A stretch of 64,000 nt of DNA from Spiroplasma gladiatoris (lineage in GTDB: Bacteria > Bacillota_I > Bacilli_A > Mycoplasmatales > Mycoplasmataceae): the NCBI RefSeq assembly GCF_004379335.1, contig NZ_CP038013.1, positions 1,054,001-1,118,000 of the forward strand. Reading direction: 5' to 3'. How positions within the stretch are numbered: position 1 is the stretch's first letter; each line of letters opens with the position of its first letter. The notes under the pieces were generated by a model, which made no database searches, was not told where the DNA came from, and was given only the letters and a program-made list of their open reading frames with translations. Position numbers and translations under genes: made by a program. Below, one piece after another: positions 54,753 to 62,235 of this stretch.

Positions 54753-54777
54753 AAAAAATCTCTTAAAGAGATTTTTT
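54753..54777 (-). terminator. Intrinsic terminator of the nrd operon
   Basis: An 11-bp stem AAAAAATCTCT with its complement and a three-base loop, overlapping the nrdE stop codon, with T-run on the minus strand. Confidence 0.8.
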
Positions 54778-56947
54778 ATACAACACAAGCATCACACTCG
54801 TAGTTTTCGCTGTCTTCTAAAACTTCTTGTCTTACTCTTACATAATAGATTGAAGCACAACCTTGTTTAAACGCTTTAATATAAGCTTTGTTTAAGTCAC
54901 GTGTTGTTGCTGTATCTGTCATAAATAAAGTAAGTGATATTGCTTGATCTACGTGTTGTTGAGCTGCTGCACATATATCGATAATTGGGTTTGGACCAAC
55001 TTCATATGCACCTAATGCATAATATGCCATATTTTCAAAATTAATATTATATGCAGGAACATATATTCTTCCTAATTTACCTTCTTTTCTTGTTTCGACA
55101 GGTGCCACAACTGGTTGTAAACTTGGTGTACATGAAGATAAATAACTAATTGATCCAGTTGGAGCAACAGCCATTAGGTGAGAGTTTGCTATTCCATTAA
55201 CTTTAATATCTTCTACTAAGTCAATTCAATCTTGTCTTGTTGGTATTGTTACATTATATTTTTTAAATAATTCTTTTACTGTTACTGATTCTGGAGTTCA
55301 TTTTTCTTCTTCACAATTTGTATATTTTTCAAAATAACTTCCATCAGCAAAAGCAGATGTTTTAAATGATTTAAAAGGACCATACTCTTTTGCTAAACGA
55401 TTTGATGCTTTAAATGCATGAAAAGCCATTGTATAGAAAAAGATATTAGTAAAATCAACTGCTTCTTTTGAATTGTAATAAATGTGGTTTGTTGCTAAAA
55501 ATCCGTGTAAATTCATCGCCCCAAGACCAACCGCATGGTTGTTTTCATTACCTTTTTTAATTGAAGGTGCACTTGATAAATTACTTGCTCTTGAAACATA
55601 ATCTAATGCACATATTGATCTAAAAATTACATCAGAAAATTCTTGTCCACTTTCCATAGTTTTTGCAATATTTAAACTACCTAAGTTACAACAAATATCT
55701 TCTCCTAATTTACTAAATCCTAAGTCTTCAGTAAATTCACTTGGTGTGCTAACTTGAACAATTTCACTACATAGATTACTCATAACAATTCTTCCTTGAT
55801 TTGCATGAGCATTTCTGTTGTTAACAGTATCGTCAAATAAAATGTAAGGATAACCACTTTCAAAATGTAATTCTGCAATAGTTTGAAATAGTTTTCTAGC
55901 GTTTATAAAAGTTTTTTTAATTTCTGGATTTTCTAACATATTGTAATATTCTTGTGTTATTGAAATATCAGACATTGGTTTTTTATAAACTTTTTCAACA
56001 TCATAAGGACTAAATAAAGCCATTTCTTCATTTTTCTTAGCTAACTCAAAAGTAATATCTGGAATAACAACTCCTAAAGATAGTGATTTAATTCTAATTT
56101 TTTCATCAGCATTTTCTCTTTTTGTATCTAAGAAACTCATAATATCTGGGTGATGAGCATGTAAATAAACTGCTCCTGCACCTTGTCTTTGGCCTAATTG
56201 ATTAGCATATGAAAATGAGTCTTCTAATATTTTCATAACAGGTATAACCCCTGTTGCTTGGTTTGCTATTTTTTTAATTGGTGCTCCATACTCTCTTAGG
56301 TTAGTTAAACATAAAGCAACTCCACCACCTCTTTTTGAAAGTTGTAATGAAGTAGTTACTGCTCTACCAATTGATTCCATATTGTCTTCTACTCTTAACA
56401 AATAACATGATACATATTCTCCACGTTGTTGTTTTCCTGCATTTAAAAATGTTGGAGTAGCTGGTTGAAATCTTCCTAACATAATTTGTTTCATTATTGC
56501 TTGAGCATTATCAAAGTTTCCATTCCCTAAGAAAAGAGCGTTCATAATAACTCGATCTTCATAGTTTTCTAGGTATTGTTTACCATCAAAAGTTTTTAGC
56601 CCATAAGCATTATAAAATTTTAATGCCCCCATAAAACTTGGAAACTCTCTTTTAAAACCATATGCTTCTTTAGTAAGTTGATCAATTTGTTCAATTGTAT
56701 ATTTTTCAATCACTTCTTTTTCATAATAATTATTTTCTACAAGATACTTAATTCTTTCCTTTGTTGAATTAAATTTCATTGTGTTTGGTTCAATATGGTT
56801 TTTTAAATATGATTTAGCAGCATCAATATCTAATTTAAAATTATCTTCTCCCTTTACAGAAAATAATTTTGCTCTAGCATTAAGTGTTATATACTCATCA
56901 GATTCTTTTGTTCCTGATAAAGTTAATACTTTGTCTTTTGTTTCCAT
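54776..56947 (-). CDS. nrdE: Ribonucleotide reductase large subunit, class Ib type (NrdE)
   Basis: Catalytic subunit that reduces ribonucleoside diphosphates, 723 residues with a TGA Trp at 55298-55300. Visible motifs are [11 protein letters not shown], the [15 protein letters not shown] loop, the active-site [10 protein letters not shown] with the radical Cys context, and the C-terminal swinging YECDACVV cysteine pair. An N-terminal ATP-cone is absent, as in class Ib. I chose the ATG at 56947: AGGAGAA lies 5 bases upstream, whereas the TTG at 56968 overlaps the nrdI end. It is the last gene of nrdF-nrdI-nrdE. Confidence 0.95.
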
Positions 56948-56955
56948 AAGTTCTC

Positions 56956-57411
56956 CTATTCTTTTCAAAAATTTATTAGTATATTTTTGATTTCAATTAA
57001 ATCGTGTTCTGTACCTAACAATTCAAACTGATACAATAACGGAACTTGTAATTTTTTTGAAATTATTGGTCCTGCAATTGCATAAGTATCACCAAAGTTT
57101 GTGTTTCCTGAAGCAATAACTCCCCTACAAAAACTTCTATTAGTTTTATCATTTAAAAACTTTATTACTTGTTTAGGAACGGCACCTGCTGTAATATTTC
57201 CTCCGCCCGCGTATGTTGGTGTAATTAATACATAGTCTTGATTTACTTCAAGTTTTTCATCTTCGTAATAAGGGATTCTTAAATTAGGAAGATTTAGCTT
57301 TTGCATAAATCTGTGTGTGTTATTTGAAATAGAAGAGAAATACACTATCATTATTTCTCCTTTTGGCTTTACAACATTATCACTTGTAACTCTAATTACA
57401 TCATCGTGCAT
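56956..57411 (-). CDS. nrdI: Flavodoxin-like NrdI
   Basis: FMN protein that supplies the oxidant (superoxide) for radical formation in NrdF. The frame reads through a TGA (56965-56967) and ends Trp-Lys-Glu at TAG, 151 residues. The phosphate loop [16 protein letters not shown] and the TPTYAGGG and ASGNTNFGD flavin loops are clear. Its ATG overlaps the nrdF stop by one base. NrdI is known to be required for building the DOPA radical in class Ie, which fits its place beside this NrdF. Confidence 0.94.
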
Positions 57412-58436
57412 TATTCAAATTCTCAATCTTCGTCAAGTGTTTCTTCTGTAACACCCATAACATATGATGAACCGTTTCCTGAGAAAAAGTCATGATTTTC
57501 ATCTGCTCTAGCTGATAATTGTGTAAATATTTCTGGTTCAATTCTTGTTTCTTCTTCAGTAAAAGGTGATTCATAACCTAAATTTTGTAAGAATTTACCT
57601 GCATTATAAACGCTAAATCTAATAGCATCTTCTGCAAGTCCAAATCCATCATATAGTTCATACAAATAGGCTTTTTCTAAATCAATTAATTTGTATAGTA
57701 ATTCAAAAACAAAATCTTTCATTTCAGCTTTTTTCTCTTCGCTAAAATTTTCAATTTTTCTTTGGAATTTATACCCGCTGTAGTAGTTGTGAATAACTTT
57801 ATCTCTAAGGATTAGTCTAATAATGTCAGAAGTATTTGGTAATTTACTTCTAGAAGATAGATAAAATGGTAAATAAAACCCTCCGTACAATAAAAACCCT
57901 GGCATTAAAGCAGCTGCAACTTTTGATTTTAATGGGTCGTTCCCAGTATAGTAAGGTATTAATTCCTTTGCTCTTTCTTGCAAAGACTTACAATTTATTA
58001 CTCATTCATGCGCTTCTTCGATTTGATCACTAGAACACAAAGTTGAAAATATAGTTCCATAACTTCTAGCGTGGACCGCTACCATAAAGGCAAAATTTGA
58101 ATAAATTACTTGTTCATGGTCAGTTAAAGAATAATCAATTTGAGCAACATCTCCGATTGTTGCTTGAATGGTATCCAATAATGTCAAACCTGTAAAAGTT
58201 CTTGTTATTAATTGTTGTCATTCTGGAGTTAATTCTGATCAAGATTTAAGGTCATTTGAAACAGGGATTTTTTCTGGTAATCAGAAATTTTGAGTAATTC
58301 TGTTTCATACTTCTAAATCTTTTTCGTCATTGATTACATTTCAATTAACTGATCGCATTTTTCCTTTAAAACCGTTTAAAGCATATTCTAAAGGTGAAAC
58401 AGAGTCAGCATAATAACTATTTTTTTGTTTTGCCAT
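57411..58436 (-). CDS. nrdF: Ribonucleotide reductase small subunit NrdF, class Ie (VPK) type
   Basis: Radical-generating subunit, 341 residues with many TGA Trp codons. Three of the four metal-binding carboxylates are replaced. Asp88 remains (LTLLDTIQ), but the FxE-xx-H helix reads FMVAVHA with Val119, the second Glu is Pro179 ([12 protein letters not shown]), and the RDE-xx-H helix reads RDKVIH with Lys213. Both histidines (122, 216) stay. Tyr126 (HARSYGTIF) is the residue known to become DOPA in Mesoplasma florum class Ie. This Val-Pro-Lys pattern marks the metal-free DOPA-radical enzyme. It is first in the operon. Confidence 0.93.
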
Positions 58437-58475
58437 TGTAGCGTTTCCTTTCTTAACTAAAATTGTGATATTAAA

Positions 58476-58484
58476 TCTATAGCA
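58476..58484 (-). promoter_or_regulatory. Candidate extended -10 promoter of the nrd operon
   Basis: TATAGA (58476-58481) preceded by TG one base upstream on the minus strand, about 40 bases before nrdF. No good -35 element at 16-18 bases. No convincing NrdR box was found nearby. Confidence 0.4.
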
Positions 58485-58756
58485 TTTTTAATCACTTTTA
58501 TAACAACTAATAACAGCTTAGTCTATAAAGATATTAAAAAAGCACATATATAAAATGTCCTTTTTTAATTCTGACAAACCGAATTGGAAGAAGATGGGTG
58601 TAAATTGAGTATTTAAATTGTTATTATAATATATCTTGAATTATTTTTTTAATTACTATCGATACTAAGTATTTGAATTACCCCTAAATTCATGCTGTTT
58701 AGTTGCAAGAATATATTACTATGAAAAATATAAAAAAGATAATCAAATTAGTAAAA
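58485..58756. other. Intergenic stretch with imperfect hairpin and no intact gene
   Basis: About 270 bases between the nrd promoter and the PD-(D/E)XK-like gene. An imperfect hairpin (AAAAAAGCACAT against ATGTCCTTTTTT, one mismatch) lies at 58537-58568 and may terminate transcription in either direction. A short plus-strand reading near 58690-58780 (VARIYYYEKYKKDNQISK) may be a fossil of a coding region. I see no RNA gene. Confidence 0.35.
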
Positions 58757-59446
58757 TTAAAAAATTTTTGCTAAAATTAGATTTTCCAGAGATTTTTTAG
58801 GTTTTTCATACTCTTGAAATACCTGATTTTCTCTAACATTTAAAATAAACAAGTTTCTCATTTTAATTTCTCTAGATGTTTCGATTAAAATTTTATTTAA
58901 GTATAAATTTGCATTATTTTTTTCTAAATAATTAGTTTTGCTTGTTTTTAACTCTACTTGGATATAATCACTATTTGTTTTCATTAAAATATCTACTTTT
59001 CCAATAAAGGGTTTATTAAAGTCTCTATTTAAAAAGACTCGATTTGCAAAAATTTCTTTTACATCAAATTTATATATCATATTATTAAGTTCAGTAATAA
59101 ATCTTTTTGTGATATTAATATGATTTTTATTAGTGCACTTGGTTTCTTCAAGTTTTAATGTTTTGTTTTGTTTATTGTAAATACTTTTATAAACTCTTTT
59201 TTTAACACATTCTTGCATGCTTATTGCATTATTTATTATTTCTTGATTAAGTTTTTCTACATAGGGAAAAGTTTCTAGTAAAATATCATACGTATTAAGC
59301 ATGTTAATTTCTCCATTTCTTAAGTTTTTTAATAATTTTTGTAAATAGATGTTTTTTGGCTCTATTTCTTTAATAACCAAGAATTTTTGTTTTACATAAT
59401 CTCATTTCACATATTTACTTATTTCGTTTAGTGCTATTGTTTTCAT
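58757..59446 (-). CDS. PD-(D/E)XK nuclease-superfamily-like protein
   Basis: 229 residues with a TGA Trp at residue 15. A nuclease-like core lies near residues 138-165: GKVDILM, then YIQVELKTSKTN, giving the Asp and Glu-x-Lys spacing of the PD-(D/E)XK fold. An upstream acidic residue in the NLRNGEINML helix may complete the site. The rest is helical and basic (pI high). No ribosome binding site precedes the ATG at 59446; a TATATT lies just upstream, so translation may be leaderless. There is no partner methylase or Cas gene beside it. Role unknown. Confidence 0.5.
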
Positions 59447-59481: not shown

Positions 59482-62235
59482 TTATTTTTGATTATATGTA
59501 TGTCTTTTTGTTAAAGTATCGATAATTGATCTTGGATTAGTTTGTTTCATATTACCAACAGCATTACTAATTTTATCAAGTTGTTTAGTTATTTGATCAA
59601 ATTGAGTTTTTAATGCATTTATTCCATCATTATTATTTAAAGAATTAATAACTGATTCTAGTTTTTCCATTCTTTTTTCTAAATCCATAACCATAGAATT
59701 ATCAACTATTGTTGATCTTATGTTTGTTGATTTTTCAATGCTTTCGTGTATTAATGAAACTTCTTCATAATCGTCATTATAATTATTTTTAAAGTTTTTA
59801 ATTGGGCTTAATTGTTCATTGCCACTAAAAACCTCTAACGCGTTTACTTTTTCATCTATCTCGTTTAAGTTTCAATTATTTATATCTTCATAATTTTTAC
59901 TTATATTTGAATCGTTTTCAAATTCACTTAAACTTTCTTTATATCCATCATTGTTTTCAAAAACGCGTTTTGGAGCTGTGAAACTTTCAAAAGTATCGTC
60001 ATTTTTATGGTTAAGTACATTTTGATTTTCTAGATCCAGCTTGTCTAATTCATTGATAGTATTATCATTGTTTTTTAATTCTGTTATGCTATTGATTTCA
60101 TTTTCTTCATAAATTGAAGCTGATATTTTGTCATCATTAGTTTCTTTTAGTTGATTAATATCAAATACATTTTCTTCACTATCTAAATCTATAAATTTTG
60201 GTGGAGCAGATATTGTTCCTAAAGTTGTTCCGTTTTGTTCTGCTATTTTTGCTAAATTTTCAGCTTGTTTTTGTTTTTTAGCAGCAACCTCGGGTAATTT
60301 GTTTTCAACTACAAAGTTTTTATCATTTAAAACTTCTTCAAGTGGAGTATCAATAACATTTTCAACACTATCAAGTTGTGTTAAAGAATTATTAATCGCG
60401 TTTTCTTGATAATCTGAAAGACTTTCTTCGTAAGTTGAGATTGCTTGTCTATCCTCACCAAATTTGGTTTGTTGATCAGTATCAAATATACTTTTTTCAC
60501 TATCTAAATCTATAAATTTTGGTGGAGCAGATATTGTTCCTAAAGTTGTTCCGTTTTGTTCTGCTATTTTTGCTAAATTTTCAGCTTGTTTTTGTTTTTT
60601 AGCAGCAACCTCGGGTAATTTGTTTTCAACTACAAAGTTTTTATCATTTAAAACTTCTTCAATTGAAGTGCTGTCAATTTGATTATCAGAAAGAATTAAA
60701 TCATTTAACTCATAATTTACAGAATGACCAATATACTTTTCTAATCCTTCTTTATAATCTTTATTTAAGTTAGCTTCAATTTTAGTTTGAGGCAGCTCAA
60801 ATTTTTGCTCTTCTAATTTTGAAGATTGTTCATAAGTTTCTACTGCTTCTAGTAAAATTGGTGGAGCAGATATTGTTCCTGTTCCTGTTGACTTTTCTTG
60901 TTCTTTTTTTTGTTTTTTAGCAGCTACTTCTTGTAACATATCTTTTTCAATAAAGTTTTTATCAGTATAAACTAATTCTTTATCGGCATCAGCTTTTTGT
61001 TCACTTATTTTTAAATCGTTAAAATCAATGTTTATTGCATAAGCCATGTATTCTTTAATTTGATTCTCATATTGTTTTGTTATTAAGTTTGGTAATTGTT
61101 CATTTGTGAGTTTTTCGCTTAGTTCTTGGGGAACACCTGGTTTATTATTACCGCTATATCTTTCATGAAGATTTTCAATATTTTCATCAAAAGCAGATGA
61201 TAGGTCTCCATCAAAAGCAGATGTAGCTTCATCAATTGGGCTTGACTTAAAGTTTGTTTTCAATGTTTCTTCATTTTCTTCGATATCGTTAAATTCTTCT
61301 TCTAGAATTACTTCAACTCCATCAATGTCATTTCATGAAAAATAACTAAGTTTATATTCTTCTGGTAGATTTAGTTTTGCAGCTACCTCATTAACATCGT
61401 TAATTTTTTTGTTTAAATATTTTTCTAAATCACTTTTTTGTTTTGGTTCTAAATATTCTGATCTTCTTAATAGCTCAGATTTTTCAAAATTAATTTTATC
61501 TTTATTTGCTTTTCAAAAATTATATTTTTTAATTAATTTTGTTGATTTATTAATATGTTCTATCTCACTTGAGCTAGGGTTTGGCAACGCAGAATTATCA
61601 GTTATTTTTACTTTCTCATTTTGGACCTGGTGCACCTTTTTTAACTGGTTTTGCACGACCAAATCTACGTTGCCAATTGACTTTCCCTCTTTGCTTACCT
61701 CTCTTTCAAATTTTCTTTCTTCTTTGTAAATTGAAATCAGGTTTCTTTCCTCAGCATAGTTATTTAATGCTTCAGAATCGAATAAAACAGCTTCTAATAA
61801 TATTCAAGCTAATATTAATGTTGCTGAGAAAATTAATATTATAACTTGTCCATATAGTACTCCTAAAATTGGAAGTAAAACAATTAAAGCTTTAACATAA
61901 GGTTTTGAAATTTTTTGACGTTTTTTAGCTCTTACAAGCTCCACTATTGAAATGGTGTATAGCAATAATGCTACTGCAATCATTACAGCCGCTATAACTA
62001 TTACAACTGTGTTTGAAATACTTCCACTTAGAACATTGTTTAAAGTTATTGAAGATTTTCCTGATGTAAAGAATGGCAAACCATAAGGTTGGTTTGAAAA
62101 AAAGTTAAAAAGTTTTACCATGAAATCACTTGATGATCATAGCTTTATTAGTAGTGATAGCACTCCAAAACTTAATAAGAATGTTGCGCCAACCATAACT
62201 GATGACCATGCAAGTATTATTAGTAATAAAAACAT
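59482..62235 (-). CDS. Large membrane-anchored repeat protein of unknown function
   Basis: 917 residues in one frame through several TGA Trp codons. Residues 1-33, 76-101 and 116-150 are membrane segments, the first a short signal-like helix. From about 150 on the protein is hydrophilic and acidic. It holds two copies of a block (VLNDKNFVVENKLPEVAAKK to SAPPKFIDLDSE) that are identical in DNA over 167 bases, plus a third diverged copy. The C-terminal about 60 residues form a coiled coil (DLEKRMEKLESVINSLNNND). GGAGGAACCAA precedes the ATG. It starts 12 bases after the gene upstream, in an operon. I know no family; a scaffold or surface/cytoskeletal role is only a guess. Confidence 0.7.
60175..60341. 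repeat. Direct repeat copy A (167 bp) inside the 917-residue gene
   Basis: Identical base for base to 60496-60662, offset 321 bases (107 codons). It encodes the Glu-Val-Ala-Ala-Lys-Lys-Gln segment and the Ser-Ala-Pro-Pro motif. Confidence 0.95.
60496..60662. repeat. Direct repeat copy B (167 bp) inside the 917-residue gene
   Basis: Second identical copy. Perfect identity in an otherwise diverged region points to a recent duplication or gene conversion. A third, diverged copy lies near 60850-60970 and keeps the SAPP and QEVAAKKQK motifs. Confidence 0.95.

Follow-up and report, generated by a model that had tools for sequence, protein, structure and literature searches.

Class Ie ribonucleotide reductases (RNRs) were described in 2018 (PMC8463856). 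The R2 subunit of Mesoplasma florum (MfR2) contains no metal and carries Tyr126 as a DOPA radical; it is reactivated by NrdI, and the radical leaves via Trp52 (PMC7615503, PMC8463856). The mechanism of DOPA maturation is unsettled in the literature (PMC8463856). In a QM/MM proposal, the HO2 radical is the oxidant, Asp88 is protonated and Lys213 acts as proton donor to the DOPA radical (PMC8902622). The RNR gene of M. florum is under a 2'-dG riboswitch (PMC12268651). Genes of the VPK type, in which Val, Pro and Lys stand in for three Glu ligands, have already been counted in 93 species of the Mycoplasmatales, and virtually all VPK genomes have the gene order nrdF-nrdI-nrdE (John et al. 2025, PMC11846895). 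The operons of the second type, QSK, differ from this gene order, and DOPA has been shown for the QSK R2 of Gardnerella vaginalis (PMC11846895).

Here we analysed an nrdF gene in a stretch of 64,000 nucleotides from Spiroplasma gladiatoris (referred to as the window). Its product is another VPK class Ie RNR, a type that is already known in the Mycoplasmatales and ordinary there. Our literature search returned no paper treating Spiroplasma and class Ie together; family-level surveys do cover it.

The nrdF gene and its metal-site residues

The gene nrdF is located at positions 57411-58436 on the minus strand and encodes a class Ie (VPK) R2 subunit of 341 amino acids (Pfam PF00268, 266 bits); coordinates, strand and length are as given in the original prediction. 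Under genetic code 4, the seven in-frame TGA codons of the gene are read as Trp. Among them is the codon of Trp52 (58281-58283), the first step of radical transfer (PMC8902622), which is readable under this code only. Alignment and codon reading placed Val119 (GTA, 58080-58082), Pro179 (CCA, 57900-57902) and Lys213 (AAA, 57798-57800) at the three positions that hold Glu metal ligands in class Ib, all on the minus strand and all as had been predicted. Both histidines are kept, as had also been claimed (His122, 58071-58073; His216, 57789-57791; minus strand), and the radical tyrosine is indeed residue 126 (TAT, 58059-58061, minus strand), the predicted DOPA radical site (PMC7615503). The earlier account of the ligands was thus right in its three Glu replacements and left out the fourth carboxylate, Asp88 (GAT, 58173-58175, minus strand), which is retained (PMC8902622). 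Taken together, the window protein has Val/Pro/Lys in place of three Glu ligands and keeps Asp88, His122, His216, Tyr126 and Trp52, which is the residue set of class Ie (VPK).

Operon organisation and leader

The window operon has the order nrdF-nrdI-nrdE, and the VPK relatives are alike, whereas the Glu-type mollicutes (L040-L042) show the order nrdI-nrdE-nrdF. The gene nrdI (56956-57411, minus strand) encodes a flavodoxin-like activator of 151 amino acids (TIGR00333, 178.9 bits with a cut-off of 74.65; PF07972), and its start codon and the stop codon of nrdF overlap in the sequence TAATG. NrdI is more divergent than NrdF, with 71% identity to the protein of L007, the locus nearest to MfR2. 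The R1 subunit is encoded by nrdE (54776-56947, minus strand; 723 amino acids; TIGR04170, 990 bits; Pfam RNR_N, lgN and lgC). SCYLL, SNLCSE, CCNLG, YYVRVR and a C-terminal CxxC (CDACVV), which we take to be RNR motifs, are intact in NrdE, in which a Pfam profile search detected no ATP cone. In three genomes from another family of the order (G040, G053 and G058; loci L027, L028 and L029), NrdI and NrdE are encoded in one open frame with no intervening stop. The fusion of G040 (also L178:3771-6407) comprises 878 amino acids, and both TIGR00333 and TIGR04170 match it above their cut-offs.

The nrdF leader and intergenic region (58437-58756, minus strand) is A+T-rich and contains a U-rich hairpin. 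We found no known RNA elements or riboswitches in this leader, even at permissive thresholds. Its folding z-score of -1.09 is not significant in comparison to shuffled sequences, and since the leader folds no better than these, we do not claim the hairpin as an attenuator.

Two further minus-strand genes of the window lie beyond the leader. The first (58757-59446) encodes a protein of 229 amino acids, perhaps a PD-(D/E)XK nuclease, in which one stretch resembles Cas4 below threshold (TIGR00372, E 2.5e-4) and the motif GKVDIL...VELK occurs. The second (59482-62235) encodes a protein of 917 amino acids that has no family match; its N-terminus is hydrophobic, and it contains internal repeats (NKLPEVAAKKQKQAENLAKIAEQNGTTLGTISAPPKF).

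Alignment, phylogeny and class assignment

The alignment comprised 39 close-type NrdF loci from the window genome and related genomes (74-98% identity; the window gene itself is L001), one annotated VPK protein each from M. hyorhinis (L044) and L. gasseri (L045) and a comparison set of nine Glu-type NrdFs (L040-L043, L046-L050). V/P/K was present in all 41 VPK-type rows, that is the 39 mollicute loci together with L044 and L045, and all nine Glu-type proteins had E/E/E at the three ligand positions. The Asp, both His and the Tyr were constant across rows of both types. In the solved class Ib proteins (nrdF2, Salmonella, E. coli, C. ammoniagenes), Glu is present in the motifs FMEAVHARSY, LESFLFYSGF and RDEAVHGYY. 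Aligned with characterised class Ib and class Ie R2 proteins, the window NrdF shows no intact Glu at residues 119, 179 or 213.

In the maximum-likelihood tree, the window protein falls within a VPK clade of 23 rows with 100/100 support, and MfR2 is part of the same clade. The V/P/K set of the window NrdF is therefore not a chance occurrence. The Glu-type rows form one group (100/100), from which the VPK and QSK proteins are set apart (100/100); how QSK and VPK branch relative to each other is left open by this tree, in which some outgroup branches are long. A scan of genome contigs for the Gln-variant motif returned 120 stretches, 113 of them with a complete signature, and each of these 113 proteins had Q/S/K. 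We rejected an assignment of the window NrdF to QSK class Ie on the basis of its V/P/K residues and its position in the tree.

Database annotation would instead make the protein a class Ib NrdF with a dimetal (Mn or Fe) site: the matching NCBIfam models NF010572 and TIGR04171 are titled class 1b, and public records list the M. hyorhinis and L. gasseri VPK proteins as class 1b. However, three of the four carboxylate ligands, all of which are kept in every class Ib protein that we examined, are gone, and the protein is placed within the VPK clade. We thus rejected class Ib, which we regard as highly improbable. For a protein that family models label class 1b, the correct subclass leads to the correct prediction of its cofactor, which is none, and of its oxygen dependence.

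The substitutions, the kept residues, 85.9% identity to MfR2, the VPK clade and an nrdFIE operon with NrdI bear out the proposed membership in class Ie (VPK); residues, homology, clade and operon are established for the window. We consider it very likely (probability roughly 0.95) that its NrdF is a metal-free class Ie protein of the VPK type with an NrdI-dependent DOPA radical on Tyr126, as in MfR2.

Selection on nrdF and other RNRs of the genome

Loss of ligands could by itself resemble decay, and the window gene might accordingly be read as a degenerate, non-functional R2 with a decayed metal site. Several observations speak against this. The dN/dS values of nrdF in comparison to four relatives were 0.026-0.069, which are approximate as dS is near saturation; none of the 39 VPK-type loci that we examined from mollicutes departs from V/P/K; the R1 and NrdI that accompany the genome's only class I RNR are intact; and close homologues of the window NrdF are active in vitro (PMC8463856). 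We regard degeneration as highly improbable; the dN/dS values and the intact motifs of R1 both indicate that the gene is functional. Purifying selection and the status of the enzyme as the sole class I RNR of its genome are established.

The genome contains one PF00268 gene (R2) and one PF02867 gene (class I/II-type R1), and a second R2 or R1 was not found in it; neither was the regulator NrdR. A class III NrdD is encoded in the same genome (G000:C1:497199-499223) with NrdG adjoining (L173:3059-5751). We therefore rejected class Ie as the sole RNR of the cell: it is the only aerobic RNR found in this genome, not its only RNR. NrdG, the activator of the class III system, is a radical-SAM Fe-S enzyme. 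The original prediction had described the chemistry of the operon as independent of iron and manganese. Because NrdI needs FMN and O2, and because NrdD and its Fe-S activator NrdG are encoded in the same genome, this statement can apply to the R2 cofactor at most.

Proposed mechanism

NrdI requires FMN and O2. In the window, the NrdI encoded next to nrdF would form superoxide from O2, and this superoxide would convert Tyr126 into a stable DOPA radical without a metal. Val119, Pro179 and Lys213 would abolish the dimetal site, and Lys213 and Asp88 could serve as the proton-handling groups that replace it. For turnover, the radical would travel from Trp52 via the C-terminal tail to the active-site cysteine of NrdE. 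All 13 residues that we compared (52, 88, 91, 119, 122, 126, 163, 179, 183, 187, 213, 216 and 217) are as in MfR2, and because of this identity a shared mechanism is much more likely for the window NrdF than any other. It is from MfR2 that we infer the metal-free state, the DOPA radical, the need for NrdI and the mechanism itself.

The kept Asp88 and the two histidines might also suit a metal-free R2 that works without DOPA, either through a tyrosyl radical that is not modified or through one metal held by Asp88/His122/His216. The compared pocket residues are nevertheless those of MfR2, in which the radical resides on DOPA and metals are absent, and this variant appears very improbable in comparison to a DOPA radical on Tyr126.

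Riboswitches and class II RNR in relatives

An NrdF at least 73% identical to that of the window was present in 79 of 198 genomes of the order, with V/P/K read directly in those of them that belong to the aligned loci. A 2'-dG-I riboswitch (RF01510) precedes class Ie nrdF in five relatives (L007, L015, L020, L022 and L024). Cobalamin riboswitches above the Rfam cut-off were detected 123-251 bases upstream of nrdF in eight of 39 VPK genomes. All eight encode class II NrdJ, intact or broken (NF005991), and a cobalamin adenosyltransferase of family PF02572, which is broken in G005. In the order-wide sample of 198 genomes, the cobalamin leader (RF00174; 123-348 bases upstream of nrdF) was found in G005, G015, G025, G031, G036, G040, G053, G058, G063, G072, G077, G081, G086, G128, G150 and G164. 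It occurred in 14 of 18 VPK genomes with NrdJ (intact or broken) versus one of 61 without (Fisher p 3e-11, a value that overstates independence as the genomes are related). Directly downstream of one NrdJ lies the gene of a single protein (L175:3717-4793) whose N-terminal half is hydrophobic and is followed by an adenosyltransferase domain similar to CobA/BtuR.

Within the genus of the window, a sub-threshold aptamer core similar to cobalamin/AdoCbl-II riboswitches was seen in the nrdF leaders of G002, G007, G009 and G017 and weakly in G013 (L005, L006, L008, L009 and L012, at about 1126-1280 of each). NrdJ or the adenosyltransferase (BtuR) was not found in these five genomes. The aptamers may be relics or may have an altered ligand. 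In the nrdF leader of the window, neither a cobalamin-like core nor a 2'-dG element is present. Sub-threshold sRNA matches in relatives (n00280, a family described as lying within a helicase gene) were dismissed.

In Streptomyces, where class I and class II RNRs occur together, cobalamin reportedly controls the class I enzyme. For cobalamin control of class Ie, our literature search, itself incomplete in coverage, returned no report. The distribution of the leaders suggests that class Ie of mollicutes is probably a B12-free alternative to the cobalt-dependent class II, and that, where both are encoded, a cobalamin riboswitch in the nrdFIE leader would shut off class Ie in the presence of B12. 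In genomes like that of the window, which have no class II enzyme, class Ie would be the one RNR used under aerobic conditions. This reading draws on the relatives and not on the window's own leader. The pattern in the relatives bears on the choice that cells make among metal-free, cobalt-dependent and Fe-S-dependent DNA precursor synthesis, and it raises the question of whether B12 represses the metal-free enzyme.

Comparison with known systems

The best solved-structure match of the window NrdF is the class Ie protein of M. florum (6GP2, E 2e-202). Between the window protein and MfR2 (Mesoplasma florum R2e; 6GP2, 6GP3, 8BT3, 8BT4), 292 of 340 residues are identical (85.9%), and the residue numbering is the same. 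The two differ upstream of the gene: L007, the locus nearest to MfR2, has a 2dG-I leader, whereas the window nrdF leader has none. The other solved VPK class Ie R2 proteins (6EBO and the 7MMP series) have V/P/K as well (335 aligned residues, E about 1e-179) and belong to a branch of the VPK clade that is more distant from the window NrdF. QSK class Ie R2 proteins of Actinomycetota resemble it in that the metal ligands are replaced and Asp88, the His residues and Tyr are kept; however, they have Gln119/Ser179/Lys213 and stand outside the VPK clade, whereas the window NrdF has V/P/K and stands inside. With the class Ib NrdFs of E. coli, Salmonella and C. ammoniagenes (3N37, 1R2F, 1KGN), the shared features are the fold, NrdI dependence (predicted for the window NrdF), the Tyr, two His and the Asp. 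Unlike the window NrdF, these proteins have three Glu ligands, a dimanganese or diiron site and other gene orders.
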